From NCBI RefSeq assembly GCF_000721705.1, contig NZ_JOJL01000009.1, forward strand, positions 62,001-126,000: DNA of 64,000 nt, given 5' to 3'. Positions 6,911 through 12,811 of the stretch are shown here, in pieces; the stretch's first letter is position 1, and each line of letters starts with the position of its first letter. Source of the DNA: Actinoplanes subtropicus (GTDB lineage Bacteria > Actinomycetota > Actinomycetes > Mycobacteriales > Micromonosporaceae). The position numbers and the translations under genes were made by a program. A model generated the notes under the pieces. It was not told the origin of the DNA and made no database searches. It was given only the letters and a program-made list of their open reading frames with translations.

Positions 6911-7918
6911 TCATTGACTGTTCAGCCGAATCGGCCCGCCGGGGCAGGCCCGGCACATGAAGATGCGCAGCCCGTAGTTGCGGGCGGTGTGCACGCCGGT
7001 GGGTTCGGTGGCGGCCAGCCATTCGGGGTTGATGCGCGACGGCTCGAGGTGGGCGTCCTCGACCGGTAGCCAGGCCCCCGGCCGCCCCTCGGTCTCGCCG
7101 ATCGTCAGGAGCAGGTCTGTCGGCGCGTGGCAGCCGGCGCAGAGCATCGGGTCGAGGTCGCTCGCACCCCACTGCGCGTATCCGCCGACCTTCCACCCCG
7201 GCGCCTGCGACACCGAGGAATACGACTCCGCACCGAATTGCCGGCTGTCCTCGAAGGCCTCGACCTGCGCCCCGAGGTCCTCGGGGAGCTCCTGCCACCA
7301 GGGATACTCGACCACCTGCTCGGGATGCAGCACGCAGCGGCGCGGCCGGAAGTCCTCCTCGCTCACGGCAACCGGCGGCGGGGTGGGCAACACGTCGAGG
7401 ACGTCAGCCGCCGCCCGCCAGCGCAGCTGGATCGCCGGCCCGGCATAGTCCGCCCCGACATAGTGCACGTTCGGACACCACAGCACCTGGAGCATGTCGG
7501 TGCCCGGTGGGCACCGCAGATCCGGCACATCCGCGGCGCGTAGCTGGGCGACCGGCACCAGCGGGCCGGGCTGCTCCGCCATCGTGCGCGCGAGCAGGAA
7601 GGTGCCCTCCTCCGTGGTGCTGACGCCGCAGAACCCCGGCGCCGCCGCATGCAGCGCCCTCATCACCTGAGCGGTGGGGTTCCGCAGCCGCCCGGCGAGT
7701 TCGGGCGGGACCGGTGTCCGGGTTTCCACGCTGTGCGGCTGGTCGCAGCTGGGCCACGGCTCATCGGCGGGCCAGAGCAGCGGCCCGCCGACGTGACTGT
7801 CGAACGGCCCGGGCTCCCCCGGCCGCGGATGCAGCCGCGTCGCCGTCCTCGCAAACGCGCCAATGCCCGGGAACAAAGCCTTGAGATCCAGCGGCCGCGC
7901 CGGCGAGGTTCGAGTCAC
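6911..7918 (-). CDS. DUF1963 (YwqG-like) protein with C-terminal cysteine pairs
   Basis: 335 residues, GTG start. The N-terminal half carries the DUF1963 pattern: SHVGGPLLWPADEPWPSC (about residues 41-58), and later KVGGYAQWGASDLD, as in YwqG-type proteins. The C-terminus has two cysteine pairs, CAGC and CRAC, which could bind zinc. Function of the family is unsettled; members often occur near polymorphic-toxin immunity genes. It lies 55 bases downstream of the E2-E1-JAB gene on the same strand, so it may be co-transcribed with it. No signal peptide or membrane segment. Confidence 0.8.
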   Translation of the reverse strand: MTRTSPARPLDLKALFPGIGAFARTATRLHPRPGEPGPFDSHVGGPLLWPADEPWPSCDQPHSVETRTPVPPELAGRLRNPTAQVMRALHAAAPGFCGVSTTEEGTFLLARTMAEQPGPLVPVAQLRAADVPDLRCPPGTDMLQVLWCPNVHYVGADYAGPAIQLRWRAAADVLDVLPTPPPVAVSEEDFRPRRCVLHPEQVVEYPWWQELPEDLGAQVEAFEDSRQFGAESYSSVSQAPGWKVGGYAQWGASDLDPMLCAGCHAPTDLLLTIGETEGRPGAWLPVEDAHLEPSRINPEWLAATEPTGVHTARNYGLRIFMCRACPGGPIRLNSQ

Positions 7919-7973
7919 GGCCGGAAGCGTAGCGGTACCTGCGGTCGTCGGCGGTCCTGCTCAGCACGGCTGG

Positions 7974-9970
7974 TCAGGCCTCCCTGGCGAGGCCGGCGCG
8001 GTCGAAGACGTGTGCGGCGATGTCCGGGGTGAGGTGGCCGCCGGCCAGCCAGTCCGCCCACTGCCCATCCGCGCCGCCGATGACCAGCACCCAAGCAGTG
8101 GGGCGATGGTCGTTCGCCGTCATACAGCAGTCTCCGAGCGGCCTCGTGGTCGGTCTTGCTGAGCCTCGGCGGACCGAACGGGTGGGTGTGCCAGGCTCCG
8201 CTGAAGGTGAGCGTATCGGCGCTGGACCGGCGGTACTCGCGGACGGCGTCGGCCAGCCCCGAGGTACCGAGCACGAAACCTCCCGGGGACGTCTCGCTGT
8301 CCGGGGGCGGCCCGCCGACGCTCGTCACCCAGACGATGCGGGCCGCGTGGTCGAACTGACCGTAAAGCGGTCCGCCCGTCTCGGTCCGCCCGTCGCGTCG
8401 GCGGGCGATCCAGAGGGCCAGTTCCCGCATCGCGTCCAGCGCCGCGGGATCGATACGTACCTGGTAGGCGCCGCCCCGATCGGCCACGACGTAGTCGCTG
8501 AGCCAGTGCAAGTGCTCCACGTGGCCGACTGGCGGCTCGGTGCCCGGCATTCGCACGATGGACGCCCCGAGCGGCGGTGTCGGCCGCTCGGACTCATATT
8601 CCTGTAGCCGGGTGAGGCCGGCGTCGAGCATGGTGGCGGCCAACGCGGTCACGTCGGTGGCAGACCCGCGGAACGTCGGTGACGAGCATCCGTACTCGGG
8701 CTGGAACCAGTCCGTACGGGGTGGGTCCGGGAAGAAGTCGCGGCCGACGTCGGCGAGGCGGGGGTCGCCACTGAGCAAGGCGATCCGGCGCAGCACGTCG
8801 GTGCCCCCGCCGCTCGCCGCGGGCATCGATACGGTGGAAATGCCGCGCTCGGCCCGATGACCCACAGCCAGGGTGATGAGCGCTGACCGGTCGTGCGCAG
8901 GATCGCCCCGGACAAGTTCGAGCAGGTTGCGACCGTTCGATTGGCGGTCGCGTCGATGATCAGGTCGACGCCGTGCCAATCGCGGCACCCGGTCAGCACG
9001 TCCCGGGCATCTTCGGCATACGCCGTGATCCGTGCATCGGGACGGATCGCGCGCAAACCTTCGGCCAGGGCCGCCGCCTTGCGGCGCCCGATGTCGCGCT
9101 CGTCGTACGGCTGGCGTACCAGGATGCCCGGATGCACCAGGCCGTTGTCGACGAGGTGGAGTTCGGCCGCGCCGGCGCGCAGGCACAGCTCAGCGGCCGG
9201 CGCGCCCAGCGCGCCGCAGCCGAGGATCAGCAGCCTGCGGCCCAGGAGCCAACCGGCCGGCCGGTCCTGGTCTCGGCGCACCGTGATCTGGCCACGCTGA
9301 TCGAAGACCCGCTCCCACCGTACGGTCGCGTCCGTGTCGGCTCGCCAAGCCGCGAGGTGCGCGATCCGGTGGGGCGCGTCCGCCCGGGTGGACGGGCTCG
9401 CGAGGAGCACCGTGATCGGCGGCGTCGTTCCGGCCTCCCGGCCACGCTCGGCATTGATCTCGATGATCTCGTCCAGCAAGTCCTGCGCGTAGGTTCGGGA
9501 AAGCCGCTGCGCGTCCAGGGTCCGCAGGAGGTCATCAATGGTTTCGGGATACTCCACGCCGACCGGGCGAGGCAGCACGATGACCAGGGCAAGGTGTTCG
9601 GGCGTCTCCCCCATCTGGTTGAGCCGACTGATGTCAGCGGCTGCCTTCTGCCAGCCGACGACGTCGCGTCGTTCGTCGTTGACCTGGGCCAGGACGGCCA
9701 CACCCAACTCCGCGCGCCCGCTCGCGGTCAGGGAGTCAGGCACGTCGGTCCGCACGACGATGCAAGCGTCGCCGGTGTTCGGGAACGCGGTGGGCGGATC
9801 CCAGGGGAGGTCGGCGTTGTCCAGCATGCCGTTGGCGGCACGGCTGTACCACTGAAAGAGCCGGGACAGGAATCCGAACATGCCGTCGCTCGGGTCCCAG
9901 TCGCTGTCGCTGCCGTAGAGGCAGATGGCGCGCCGCCACTGGACGTGCGGCAGCCCGTCGAAGCGGTCAT
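7974..9970 (-). pseudogene. E2-E1(ThiF)-JAB ubiquitin-like conjugation fusion, frame-disrupted
   Basis: Three domains are readable in order but in different frames. (1) E2-like: FDGLPHVQWRRAICLYGSD followed by a GMFGFLSRLFQWYSRAANG helix. The Cys in ICLY is in the position of the E2 active site. (2) E1/ThiF: GCGALG nucleotide loop, ILVRQPYDERDIGRRK with the Arg and Lys of the ATP site, then DLIIDATANR. (3) JAB: Glu in ETGGPLYG and a perfect JAMM motif HTHPFGPPRLSKTD. A conserved-looking Cys (YGCSSPTF) lies between E1 and JAB. The frame changes at 9965-9966, at 8925-8926 (one G missing in each) and at 8100-8103 (one G too many). Correcting all three gives one continuous protein starting at ATG 9970 and ending at TGA 7974. 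The gene is either decayed or mis-sequenced; the intact motifs favour the latter. Confidence 0.75.
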
Positions 9971-10161
9971 GGGTAGCCCTGACCCTCGGGCGCCGGAACG
10001 CACGGCCGGCCGGTTACCTCGCCCTCGACGAGTCCGGCCAGTGGCTGGACTCGGAGCACGTAGCGGGTCCCACACGCCACGCACCGTCGGATCACCGCAA
10101 CTGAGTCTGGCGTCTCCCACATCTGGAAGGTCATCGGAGGCCGCATACGCTCAGTGTTCAC
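9967..10161 (-). CDS. Small CxxC protein preceding the E2-E1-JAB gene
   Basis: 64 residues, GTG start at 10161; internal ATGs at residues 6 and 10 are alternatives. Contains CVACGTRY and a later GRPC, so a zinc-knuckle-like fold is possible. The stop overlaps the ATG at 9970 (ATGA), indicating coupling to the conjugation gene. It has no C-terminal GlyGly and no visible beta-grasp pattern, so it is not an obvious ubiquitin-like modifier. No family recognised. It could be an N-terminal segment of the fusion separated by the nearby frame change. Confidence 0.5.
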   Translation of the reverse strand: MNTERMRPPMTFQMWETPDSVAVIRRCVACGTRYVLRVQPLAGLVEGEVTGRPCVPAPEGQGYP

Positions 10162-10382
10162 TCGCTACCAAGCGCTCCATTCGCCGTCAGTGGCCACAGT
10201 CGGCGCACTGCCCGTGTACGGCGTCATGGCCCGGCAGCACAGCGGGGCTGAAGGGCCGCTGAAGACGCGCGATGTTCGTCGATGTTCAAGTCACCTCGCG
10301 TATGCCAGCGGCGGCTCGGCCGTTCATCTGTGGCTCATAGACAAGCGGCACAGGTTCGGGGATCACGAGAAAGGAACCCGAG

Positions 10383-12002
10383 ATGATCCGTCCCGCCGTC
10401 GCCGGCCTCGCCGTGCTGGGTCTGCTGGCCGCCGCACCGGCCGATGCCGCGCCCAGCAAGGCGCATCCGCCGAACGCGTCGCACGTGTTGCTGCTCTCCA
10501 TCGACGGTCTGCACCAGCAGGACCTCGACTGGTACGTCCGGACCCATCCGCAGTCGACGCTGGCCCGGCTCACCGCGTCGGGCACCAGGTATCGCAACGC
10601 GGCCACGCCGTACCCATCCGATTCGTTCCCGGGGATGCTGGCGCAGGTCACCGGCGGCGACCCGCGGACCACCGGCGTCTACTACGACGACACCTGGAAC
10701 GCGGCATTGCTGCCGGCCGGGACGACCAAGTGCGCCGGGGTCCAGCCGGGTGCCGAAGTGGACTATGCCGAGCCGGCCGACCGGGACTCGTCGCGGCTGG
10801 ACGCCGGGCAGGGGCTGGCGGGGCTGCCGGGCTCGATCCTGTCGCTGACCGGCTCGCCCGAGGAGTTGCTCGATCCGGCCCAGCTGCCGGTCGACCCGGC
10901 CACCTGCACGCCGGTCTACCCGCACCAGTACCTCAAGGTGAACACGGTCTTCGAGGTCGCCCGCCGGCATGGGCTGGTGACCGCCTGGTCGGACAAGCAT
11001 CCGGCGTACGACGTGTTGCAGGGTCCGTCCGGCGCGGGCATTCAGGACCTGTTCACACCGGAGATCAACAGCACCGCCGACGCCGCGGGGGACGACTGGA
11101 CCAAGGTCAACCGGCTGACCCAGCAGTACGACGGGTACAAGGTGCAGGCGGTGCTCAACCAGATCGACGGGTACGACCACAGTCGCTCGATCAAGCTGGG
11201 CACGCCCGCGGTGTTCGGGATGAACTTCCAGAGCGTCTCGACCGCGCAGAAGCTGCCCACCTCGGACGGGCAGGCCGGCGGCTACCTGGCCGACGGGCGT
11301 ACGCCGGGGCCGGTCCTCGCCGGGGCGCTCGACTTCGTCGACGCCCAGGTCGGCCGGTTCACCGCCGAGCTGGCCAAGCAGCGGCTGGCCGGCCGGACCA
11401 CGGTCATCGTGTCGGCCAAGCACGGCCAGTCCCCCACCGACCCGGCCCAGCTGACCCGGATCGACGACGGTGCGATCATCGACGGGCTGAACGCGGCGTG
11501 GAAGGCGGCCGGACACTCGGGCAACCTGGTCGCGTTCTCGGTCGACGACGACACCATGCTGATCTGGCTGACCGACCGGTCGCCGGCCGCGACCGCCTTC
11601 GCGCGGAGCTTCCTGCTCGGCCACAGTGGCACCGGCAACGGCATCACCGGGGCGGCCAAGCCGTACACCTCGTCCGGGCTTTCGAAGGTGTACGCCGGGG
11701 CGGCGGCGGCCGCGTTCATCGGCGTCCCCGCGGGCGACGCGCGGGTGCCCGACCTGATCGGCATCGCCCAGCCGGGCGTGGTCTACACCGCCAAGAAGTC
11801 GAAGATCGCCGAGCACGGCGGTGACGCGCCGGCCGACCGGCACGTGCCGATCGTGGTGTCCGGGCCGGGCGCAGGCCGGCGCACGGTCGACGCGCCGGTC
11901 GAGACCACCCAGATCGCGCCGACCATCCTGCGCCTGCTCGGCCTGGACCCGCGCGAGCTCGCCGCCGTCCGCATCCAGCACACCGCGCCGCTGCCCGGCT
12001 AG
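10383..12002 (+). CDS. Secreted alkaline-phosphatase-superfamily phosphodiesterase / nucleotide pyrophosphatase
   Basis: 539 residues with a Sec signal peptide (cleavage near APADA-AP, residue 22). The alkaline-phosphatase superfamily core is visible: LLLSIDGLHQQDLDW (first metal Asp), YPSDSFPGMLAQVTGG (nucleophile region), SAKHGQSP (metal Asp replaced by Lys relative to the common DHG) and EHGGD with later DRHVP. Type I phosphodiesterase/nucleotide pyrophosphatase is the best description. The change from DHG to KHG is also seen in some secreted actinobacterial members, so loss of activity cannot be assumed. RBS AGAAAGGA upstream. Its TAG overlaps the stop of the converging ABC gene within a CTAG. 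Confidence 0.85.
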   Translation: MIRPAVAGLAVLGLLAAAPADAAPSKAHPPNASHVLLLSIDGLHQQDLDWYVRTHPQSTLARLTASGTRYRNAATPYPSDSFPGMLAQVTGGDPRTTGVYYDDTWNAALLPAGTTKCAGVQPGAEVDYAEPADRDSSRLDAGQGLAGLPGSILSLTGSPEELLDPAQLPVDPATCTPVYPHQYLKVNTVFEVARRHGLVTAWSDKHPAYDVLQGPSGAGIQDLFTPEINSTADAAGDDWTKVNRLTQQYDGYKVQAVLNQIDGYDHSRSIKLGTPAVFGMNFQSVSTAQKLPTSDGQAGGYLADGRTPGPVLAGALDFVDAQVGRFTAELAKQRLAGRTTVIVSAKHGQSPTDPAQLTRIDDGAIIDGLNAAWKAAGHSGNLVAFSVDDDTMLIWLTDRSPAATAFARSFLLGHSGTGNGITGAAKPYTSSGLSKVYAGAAAAAFIGVPAGDARVPDLIGIAQPGVVYTAKKSKIAEHGGDAPADRHVPIVVSGPGAGRRTVDAPVETTQIAPTILRLLGLDPRELAAVRIQHTAPLPG

Positions 12003-12811
12003 GACGAGGGCGGGGCGGCGGGGCGCAACGTGCGGGCCGGTTTCCAGCCCGGTCCGGGGACGCTGGCCCGCAGCATCCGGGTGTACGGGTGCTGCGGGTC
12101 GTCGAGCAGCCGCCCGGTGGGCCCGTGCTCGACCACCGCCCCCTTGCGCATGACCACGGCGTCGTCCGTGAGCTGGCGTACCACGGCCAGATCGTGGCTG
12201 ATCAGGATGTAGCTGATCCCGCGCTCGTCCCGGATGTCGGCCAGCACGTTCAGCACCTGGGCCTGGATCGACACGTCCAGCGCGGCCACCGACTCGTCGA
12301 GGATGAGCACCCGCGGGTCGGTGGCCAGCGCCCGGGCGATCGCGAGGCGCTGGCGCTGGCCGCCGGACAGGTCCCGGGGCAGGGCGTTGATCTGGCGCTG
12401 GTCGAGGCCGACCAGGTCGGCGAGCTCGCCGGTGATCCGGCGGCGGGTCGCTGCGTCGTGGTCGTGGTGCACCCGCAGCACCTCGTCGACCAGGACCGCG
12501 CCGGATTGGCGGGGGTCGAGGCTCGCGTACGGGTCCTGGAAGACGATCTGGACCTCGCGGCCGCGACGCTTGCGCTCGGCGCCGCCGCGGGCGGGCCGGC
12601 TCCGGTCGCGGCCGCAGGCGACGATCGTGCCGGCGGCGGGCCGTTCCAGGCCGACGATCATGCGGGCGACGGTGGTCTTGCCGCTGCCGGATTCGCCGAC
12701 GACGGCCAGCGAGCGGCCCCGGTGCAGGTCGAACGAGAGGTCGTCGACCGCCACGTGCGCGCCGAACTGCTTGCGCAGTCCGCGTACGGCAAGAATGGGA
12801 TCTTCAGGCAT
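11999..12811 (-). CDS. Oligopeptide ABC transporter ATPase, DppF/OppF type
   Basis: 270 residues from ATG 12811, which overlaps the end of the upstream ATPase gene by 8 bases; an in-frame upstream extension lacks family similarity. Walker A GESGSGKTT, signature LSGGQRQRLAIARAL, Walker B VLILDESVAALD, His switch ISHDLAVV. The C-terminal oligopeptide/dipeptide extension is short (PYTRMLRASVPGPGW). Last gene of the five-gene transporter operon running leftward from 17270. It energises import together with the adjacent DppD-type ATPase. Confidence 0.92.
   Translation of the reverse strand: MPEDPILAVRGLRKQFGAHVAVDDLSFDLHRGRSLAVVGESGSGKTTVARMIVGLERPAAGTIVACGRDRSRPARGGAERKRRGREVQIVFQDPYASLDPRQSGAVLVDEVLRVHHDHDAATRRRITGELADLVGLDQRQINALPRDLSGGQRQRLAIARALATDPRVLILDESVAALDVSIQAQVLNVLADIRDERGISYILISHDLAVVRQLTDDAVVMRKGAVVEHGPTGRLLDDPQHPYTRMLRASVPGPGWKPARTLRPAAPPSS

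Follow-up and report, generated by a model that had tools for sequence, protein, structure and literature searches.

A broken E2–E1–JAB gene in Actinoplanes subtropicus as a probable relic of a ubiquitin-system-like bacterial anti-virus operon

The window analysed here is a stretch of 64,000 nucleotides from Actinoplanes subtropicus (contig NZ_JOJL01000009.1, positions 62,001 to 126,000). It contains the E2, E1 and JAB parts of a triple-module enzyme in that order, preceded by a 64-codon ORF and followed by a DUF1963-like gene (Table 1). The enzyme gene is broken, as its reading frames, homology and gene content agree: the E2 part is incomplete and the frame is interrupted twice, near 8922 and near 8140. 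In alignment with intact homologues, about 75 N-terminal E2 residues are missing. Between the points that meet at the junction, relatives carry the rest of a zinc-ribbon gene and these E2 codons, and the missing DNA, estimated from them, amounts to roughly 1 kb. An earlier note, made from the sequence alone, had described a collinear E2–E1–JAB stretch with an E2-like N-terminus; a single minus-strand stretch does hold all three parts, but they do not form one open gene, and the E2 is a truncated one.

Table 1. Features of the locus in the window (minus strand throughout)
Feature	Position	Strand	Evidence
Zinc-ribbon gene remnant (64-codon ORF, N-terminal zinc ribbon only)	9967..10161	-	Zinc-ribbon profile match, alignment, position
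Approximate junction from zinc-ribbon homology to mid-E2 homology in another frame	9990..10002	-	Frames, alignments
Piece 1: last part of E2 domain, linker, start of E1/ThiF domain	8922..10013	-	PF14457 fragment, PF00899, invariant residues
Piece 1, end of E2	~9830–9992	-	
Piece 1, Cys codon	9921–9923	-	
Piece 1, ThiF Pfam match	~8931–9236	-	
Piece 2: remainder of E1 and the greater part of the JAB domain	8140..8922	-	PF14464, PADLOC JAB, NF058523, frames
JAMM residues in piece 2	E 8380–8382; HxH (HTH) from 8190; D 8149–8151	-	Frames
Piece 3: C-terminal end of JAB, first frame again, stop codon 7974–7976	7974..8138	-	Frames, alignment
DUF1963-like gene, 55 bases downstream; unrelated neighbour outside the system	6911..7918	-	Weak Pfam match; absent from related loci

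The identity of the parts is supported by several profile collections. The ThiF domain (PF00899) is matched above the Pfam cut-off (E 2.6e-19), Prok-JAB (PF14464) just below it (E 2.6e-5, 24.5 bits, cut-off 25), and Prok-E2_A (PF14457) as a fragment covering only profile positions 113–147 of 163 (E 0.0011, 18.9 bits, cut-off 25). PADLOC profiles recognise E1–E2 (E 2.6e-40) and JAB (E 5e-14) on the pieces of the broken gene. NCBIfam NF058523, ‘6A-MBL cap2_3’, matches both frame pieces (E 1.9e-34 and 7.3e-40) with 119.2 and 137.1 bits, below its curated cut-off of 320; two intact relatives of the zinc-ribbon type described below are matched over nearly their full length and score 310.5 and 288.1 bits against the same cut-off. 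The ICLY cysteine of E2 and the LGCGALG motif of E1 are present in the window frames, piece 1 is 44% identical to homologue P0002, and a solved relative of the enzyme is Cap2 7to3 (E 1.9e-17). The ThiF/E1 domain and the JAB domain with its JAMM motif are as the earlier note had read them. The assignment to the ubiquitin-like E2–E1–JAB triple-module family also holds, the link to anti-phage systems being made through the family names of PADLOC and NF058523.

The invariant residues of intact relatives are kept at 98 of the 101 testable positions, which lies within the leave-one-out range of those relatives (92.7–100%). Such conservation would also be expected if the gene were intact in the organism and its breaks were sequencing or assembly errors in a working E2–E1–JAB system. 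This is very improbable, since frame errors cannot explain the absence of most of the zinc-ribbon gene and of the E2 codons, and the window's own genome has no relative of the intact operons' cyclase at E ≤ 1e-10. A zinc-ribbon gene match at E ≤ 0.001 was not found in that genome either, and beside the window gene no CD-NTase cyclase was seen and no effector gene recognised. A deletion would have brought the beginning of the zinc-ribbon gene up against mid-E2 sequence, and the two further frame changes break the enzyme; the decay is probably recent. What had been proposed as a defence or protein-modification unit is at this locus a relic and not a working unit.

The 64-codon ORF has one CxxC pair and one further cysteine. 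Among the 857 frames of at least 30 codons in the window, it is the best match to the zinc-ribbon profile (E 3.8e-5; the next reaches 0.19). The match is confined to the N-terminal zinc ribbon of a protein of 309–428 residues encoded directly upstream of intact homologues, and the ORF occupies the position of that gene. In all seven zinc-ribbon-type relatives, the upstream ORF is of the zinc-ribbon type or a shrunken form of it: the gene lies directly upstream of the enzyme in six, and the seventh keeps only its start and tail. The 64-residue CxxC protein therefore does belong with the enzyme gene, as the earlier note had supposed, but it is the N-terminal part of a larger protein and not a free-standing one. 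Two AlphaFold models of zinc-ribbon proteins have a mean pLDDT of 66.3 and 72.5, and residues 275–349 of the first of these fall below 50. A PDB fold search with both models gave no significant match, ubiquitin folds being absent from the matches listed, and no Pfam ubiquitin-like domain was matched in the four zinc-ribbon proteins scanned. Weak sequence matches of the zinc-ribbon protein to domains of copper-transporting ATPases were also observed (best E 8.4e-4, profile positions 30–99).

The downstream neighbour matches DUF1963 weakly (18.3 bits, cut-off 23). Within the genus, 26 of 60 genomes have homologues, the window's own included, and the picked ORFs of 31 related loci contain none; DUF1963 was consequently rejected as a partner of the system. 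The neighbourhood comparison proposed earlier thus bears out the zinc-ribbon gene as a regular upstream neighbour, and not the DUF1963 gene as a member of the set. A three-gene modification unit, made of a short standalone E1–JAB enzyme, a CxxC partner and DUF1963, was suggested by the adjacency and collinearity of the three genes; given the count in related loci and the full E2 and full-length zinc-ribbon gene of relatives, it can hardly be credited. The asparaginase and phosphodiesterase neighbours were not found beside DUF1963 in the 29 hit loci (L101–L129, about 1.5 kb on each side), so that no empty site is demonstrable.

The seven intact relatives share a gene order: the zinc-ribbon gene (shrunken in one), E2–E1–JAB in one polypeptide, and, directly after the enzyme gene in every case, a CBASS-type cyclase (two of them scored by PADLOC). 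Four also have a 1TM-type gene (again two scored by PADLOC). At locus L146, PADLOC recognises the cyclase with E 8.8e-95 and the 1TM effector with E 1.3e-66; solved relatives of the cyclase are 6e0k (E 1e-59) and EfCdnE 7x4c (E 1e-46). By gene content and order, the intact operon represents a novel form of the 6a/CBASS systems that combines a zinc-ribbon protein, a Cap2–Cap3 fusion and a CdnE-like cyclase, joined at some loci by a 1TM effector. In the tree, the window falls into a 19-row set with all seven zinc-ribbon-type enzymes, one of the NB-ARC type and ten of unknown context, apart from 17 rows of the metallo-beta-lactamase (MBL) type (99/98). This placement suggests that the window gene descends from the zinc-ribbon version of the operon. 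Across the phylum, 5 of 396 genomes match NF058523 at E ≤ 1e-30, including the window's own, and the IMG/VR viral collection yielded a single weak relative (L209).

In all 29 E2–E1–JAB-type loci scanned, the ORF just upstream of the enzyme gene ends in Phe-Gly followed by 0–7 residues, a count to be read as a description with controls and not as a blind test, since the pattern was chosen after the first tails had been seen, and one drawn from related sequences that are not independent. The survey covered 38 loci, of which 34 were usable; for L042, L046, L157 and L209 no enzyme start could be located, and they were set aside. L025, which duplicates locus L150, was excluded, and so were weaker E1 loci, among them L007, L008 and L152. 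Measured from the estimated start of the enzyme gene, the end of the match lies no more than 15 bases upstream or 51 bases downstream in all 29 loci; L143 and L028 each have a second match, probably by chance. The JAMM pattern is present in 23 of the 29, profile matches run through the JAB part in L148, L153, L154 and L202, L044 is cut by a contig end and L030 is without the pattern. The tail is common to upstream ORFs of the zinc-ribbon, MBL and NB-ARC types; homology gave the partner class at 16 MBL loci, of which one was tested as NF058524, and the tail alone was the guide at L034, L148, L153, L154 and L202. It is found in all eight full zinc-ribbon proteins and the shrunken one, and in 119 of the best 120 of 2653 MBL homologues (the exception is P0185); no Pfam domains were found in two MBL proteins scanned. 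Among control genes it occurs in 1 of 117, and in further controls in 4 of 174 and 0 of 82. JAB-less relatives have no such tail (0 of 5): four of their upstream ORFs end in GRAG, the two of these that were scanned being CD-NTases, and the fifth locus (L205) has no clear upstream end.

The upstream protein with the Phe-Gly tail is likely to be the modifier that these enzymes attach. The remark that the modifier might be unusual or encoded elsewhere was apt: the best candidate in relatives is the upstream zinc-ribbon protein, ending in Phe-Gly with a short tail and not in Gly-Gly. The window copy has lost this end of the protein. Alternatively, the conjugated protein may be the cyclase, as in ordinary type II CBASS, with the zinc-ribbon protein an accessory or sensor and the tail a docking motif for the enzyme. 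The constant place of the cyclase behind the enzyme fits this explanation, as does the conjugation of CD-NTases by Cap2 through a C-terminal Gly or Ala, described in PMC10097602. The cyclases of the seven relatives end in R, G, L, A, G, K and P; three thus end in Gly or Ala, but these ends are not conserved, whereas the Phe-Gly tail is present in all nine zinc-ribbon-type proteins. The tail is also found in MBL loci, where relatives of this cyclase were sought near the enzyme and none clustered. Conjugation of the cyclase is therefore considered unlikely.

Under the preferred reading, with the zinc-ribbon protein as the conjugated one, this protein would be made with a disordered C-terminal tail of Phe-Gly and 1–7 variable residues, and JAB would trim the residues after Phe-Gly. 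E1 would then adenylate the exposed glycine, and the E2 cysteine would take the protein over and attach it to a target, from which JAB could remove it again. Conjugation through the exposed glycine is proposed by analogy with Cap2 and cGAS. It would presumably tune the cyclase, whose cyclic nucleotide would activate the effector. Taken jointly with this mechanism, the window probably holds a broken relic of a ubiquitin-system-like bacterial anti-virus operon.

In a broader reading, which we regard as evenly balanced between right and wrong, E2–E1–JAB enzymes would be general conjugation machines for interchangeable upstream proteins without a recognised ubiquitin fold, marked by a disordered Phe-Gly tail with an extension trimmed by their own JAB; the window would preserve a fossil of the zinc-ribbon version, and relatives carry that version joined to a CBASS of the CdnE/1TM type. 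The bare disordered peptide of L147 is possibly another such upstream product. For the 6a class, the tail points to a probable substrate, across several protein types unrelated to one another, and it predicts precisely which residue would serve in conjugation; if true, this would account for the lack of a ubiquitin-like gene next to such enzymes. What the window itself holds is a gene remnant, and its value lies in the odd shape that pointed to the intact operon. In a search of open-access papers (without bioRxiv), no paper naming ‘6A-MBL’ and none on the Phe-Gly tail as a conjugation site was found; the NCBIfam name implies a source, so an earlier publication is possible.

Among known systems, operon type 6a combines a triple-module E2–E1–JAB with a metallo-beta-lactamase, according to Iyer et al. 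2006 (PMC1779556). The 6a or ‘6A-MBL’ systems (NF058523, NF058524) and the intact relatives have the same domain order in one polypeptide, and an upstream partner with a Phe-Gly tail as in zinc-ribbon-type loci. Their partner is an MBL, whereas the intact relatives have a zinc-ribbon protein instead and a cyclase after the enzyme. The window copy differs further in being broken and below the NF058523 cut-off; no metallo-beta-lactamase was found beside its triple module, which has the zinc-ribbon remnant upstream and DUF1963 downstream.

In the eukaryotic conjugation of Atg8/LC3, Phe-Gly is followed by an extension that is trimmed, and Atg8 itself has a beta-grasp fold and is processed by enzymes that are separate proteins. 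The use of a single C-terminal glycine and not Gly-Gly (PMC10097602) is shared with the proposed modifier, as an analogy only. The Bil system (BilABCD) has a JAB that exposes the C-terminal glycine of the modifier, as outlined in a review (PMC11354881). Its E1, E2 and JAB activities and this glycine-exposing JAB resemble the proposed system; BilA, however, has ubiquitin-like domains, and none was recognised in the zinc-ribbon proteins scanned; the enzymes of zinc-ribbon-type loci form one polypeptide. Type II CBASS comprises a cyclase, Cap2 (E2–E1), Cap3 (JAB) and an effector. Cap2 and Cap3 are separate there and fused in the intact relatives, which have in addition the zinc-ribbon gene with its conserved Phe-Gly tail and a cyclase tail that is not conserved; beside the window gene there is no cyclase. 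The intact relatives share with type II CBASS the cyclase and the 1TM effector recognised by PADLOC, and the E1–E2 part of the enzyme is related to Cap2 7to3.

The E2-E1(ThiF)-JAB fusion that the earlier note read from the window is a real gene by Pfam, PADLOC and NCBIfam, but a broken one: the start of the E2 domain is missing and the reading frame changes twice (see table). ThiF is a clear Pfam match, JAB falls just below its cut-off (24.5 bits vs 25) and the Prok-E2_A match is limited to its last part. By PADLOC the pieces belong to E1-E2 and JAB proteins; NCBIfam assigns them, with a score below the cut-off, to cap2_3 of the '6A-MBL' anti-phage system (MBL, metallo-beta-lactamase). Intact homologues from zinc-ribbon-type loci are 725–778 residues long, and three-domain homologues mostly 734–794. 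An alignment to intact relatives puts the start of the window protein about 75 residues inside the E2 domain, just ahead of the 'HDRFDGLPHVQW..ICLY' stretch. Fourteen intact relatives share 104 invariant columns, of which the window protein covers 101 and keeps 98; in a leave-one-out control, each intact relative keeps 92.7–100% of invariant columns. The damage looks recent, since the catalytic residues are kept. Sequencing errors could account for both frame changes, but they do not explain the missing part of E2 and the missing neighbours.

Coordinates of the window gene (window positions) and of features at related loci (L numbers)
Feature	Position	Strand	Basis
64-codon ORF plus one protein in three reading-frame pieces (window)	about 10161 to 7974	minus	frames
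First frame shift in window gene	near 8922		
Second frame shift in window gene	near 8140		
Shrunken candidate modifier gene (L147, genome G207)	about 9263-9629		
E2-E1-JAB enzyme and its upstream NB-ARC/AAA partner (L031), first range	7524-9779		
Same pair (L031), second range	9800-12181		

Intact enzymes are directly preceded by the gene for a protein of 309–428 residues, which begins with a zinc ribbon (CxxC..CxxC), has a helical domain carrying conserved cysteines in its middle and ends in a tail of predicted disorder. Against a 50-position profile of its N-terminus, the 64-codon CxxC ORF of the window ranks first of 857 frames (E 3.8e-5; runner-up 0.19). This match and the same upstream position in relatives identify the ORF, by similarity, as a gene remnant of the zinc-ribbon protein; it had been proposed as a partner of the enzyme and is a true one, while the DUF1963 gene, proposed alongside it and without a homologue among the ORFs picked at 31 related loci, is a false partner. 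The zinc-ribbon similarity ends partway through the second Cys pair, beside the start of the E2 similarity, the simplest reading being a deletion between the two genes. A weak match to the zinc-ribbon protein profile (L164; E 5.3e-13), mainly to the middle part, sits within a 636-codon open frame of G131, which is not among the genomes with E2-E1-JAB matches; the middle domain may also be present elsewhere.

At seven loci a cyclase follows E2-E1-JAB: six are in genomes from the same family as the window (G170, G067, G246, G268, G207 and G099), and one is in an Amycolatopsis (L026). The family is Micromonosporaceae, judged by two of its members, Virgisporangium (P0009, identical in G099) and Catenuloplanes (P0085). 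The two cyclases scanned with PADLOC are oligonucleotide cyclases (L146, E 8.8e-95; L150, E 1.7e-86), the best solved relatives being 6e0k (named cGAS/DncV-like; E 1e-59) and EfCdnE 7x4c (E 1e-46). Of the small proteins encoded next, the two scanned are 1TM effectors by PADLOC (L146, E 1.3e-66; L147, E 1e-64); four of the seven loci have a 1TM-type gene, which in one case lies on the other strand. Among 354 genomes of the family, one of them the window's own, eight others have full-profile E2-E1-JAB enzymes: the six cyclase-operon genomes plus G058 and G678, whose upstream tails look MBL-type. The six best cyclase matches in the family (461–483 bits; next 234) fall exactly in the six operon genomes, five of which have strong zinc-ribbon matches and the sixth, G207, a shrunken version. 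In the tree, one set of 19 rows (support 99/98) unites the window enzyme with every one of the seven enzymes of zinc-ribbon type, the NB-ARC enzyme and ten relatives whose context is unknown; outside it lie 17 MBL-type rows, two of them (L034, L148) labelled by tail alone. The window enzyme branches near the base of this set, so its operon may not have matched the seven intact ones in every detail.

All eight zinc-ribbon proteins, six from intact loci and two further homologues, end in Phe-Gly (FG) plus 1–7 variable residues. The G207 version has lost the zinc ribbon and helical domain; a Gly-rich ORF remains just before the enzyme, starting MTVTYR as in some others, continuing as a Gly-rich linker and ending APSVFGCR, and the genes that follow, for E2-E1-JAB, the cyclase and the 1TM protein, are still present. 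By its sequence, the part kept in this candidate modifier is the tail. The MBL partners in 6a-type loci end likewise (16 of 16; 15 VGFG, one TEFG), as do 119 of the 120 MBL homologues listed of 2653, with 0–6 residues after FG and none in five. In Actinomadura sp. DC4 (L031), the upstream NB-ARC/AAA protein ends VTVFGNRAAS and is, judged by this ending, a third partner class.

Overall, the ORF immediately preceding the enzyme has an FG ending at 29 of 29 E2-E1-JAB-type loci and, in the same scan, at none of five JAB-less E2-E1 loci. The controls gave one of 117 other genes, with the scan confined to 60 bases about the start, and, for an FG-type ending, four of 174 other ORFs. At four of the five JAB-less loci, the upstream ORF stops right after GRAG; both of those tested are CD-NTases, which Cap2, the E2-E1 protein of type II CBASS, conjugates via a C-terminal Gly or Ala (PMC10097602). 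Contig C40 of G058 carries both kinds: an E2-E1-JAB locus (L148) with the MBL-type upstream tail VGFGRER and, ~22 kb away, a CBASS (L149) with a phospholipase effector, a cyclase ending GRAG and a JAB-less E2-E1.

The upstream partner protein would be the substrate of E1, and the residues after Phe-Gly a pro-peptide that the fused JAB would trim; JAB could also undo conjugates, like Cap3, the JAB protein of type II CBASS, which cleaves at the end of cGAS (PMC10097602). The few MBL tails ending exactly at FG argue against trimming as a general step, as does L030 (Mycobacterium sp. MAG), where an MBL FG tail precedes an E2-E1-JAB-type ORF in which a pattern scan found no JAMM pattern. The main rival holds that the cyclase, not the upstream protein, is conjugated; three of the seven cyclases end in Gly or Ala. 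With the upstream protein as substrate, conjugation in zinc-ribbon operons would act on the cyclase/1TM CBASS. In Bacillus cereus, conjugation links the cyclase to PspA (PMC11153139), which makes a membrane-stress target possible. Of all this, the FG tail rule most deserves testing.

In the open-access literature searched, neither the FG tail nor operons of the zinc-ribbon/E2-E1-JAB/cyclase kind turned up in any paper; earlier publication is possible. Iyer et al. (2006; PMC1779556) described two types, 6a, in which the triple module has an MBL neighbour, and 6b, with a polymerase-beta nucleotidyltransferase; section 14 of that paper makes no mention of a tail for 6a. A patatin-like gene family lies downstream of the enzyme at 18 of 22 loci of the genome_contigs set (noted for L027-L046), the two of 18 genes scanned being patatins by Pfam, and is a likely effector of MBL-type 6a operons. 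A 2025 review (PMC12355090) presents Cap2 as the only known system of its sort acting on a non-beta-grasp protein. The intact zinc-ribbon/E2-E1-JAB/cyclase operon is a new variant of the known 6a/CBASS systems.
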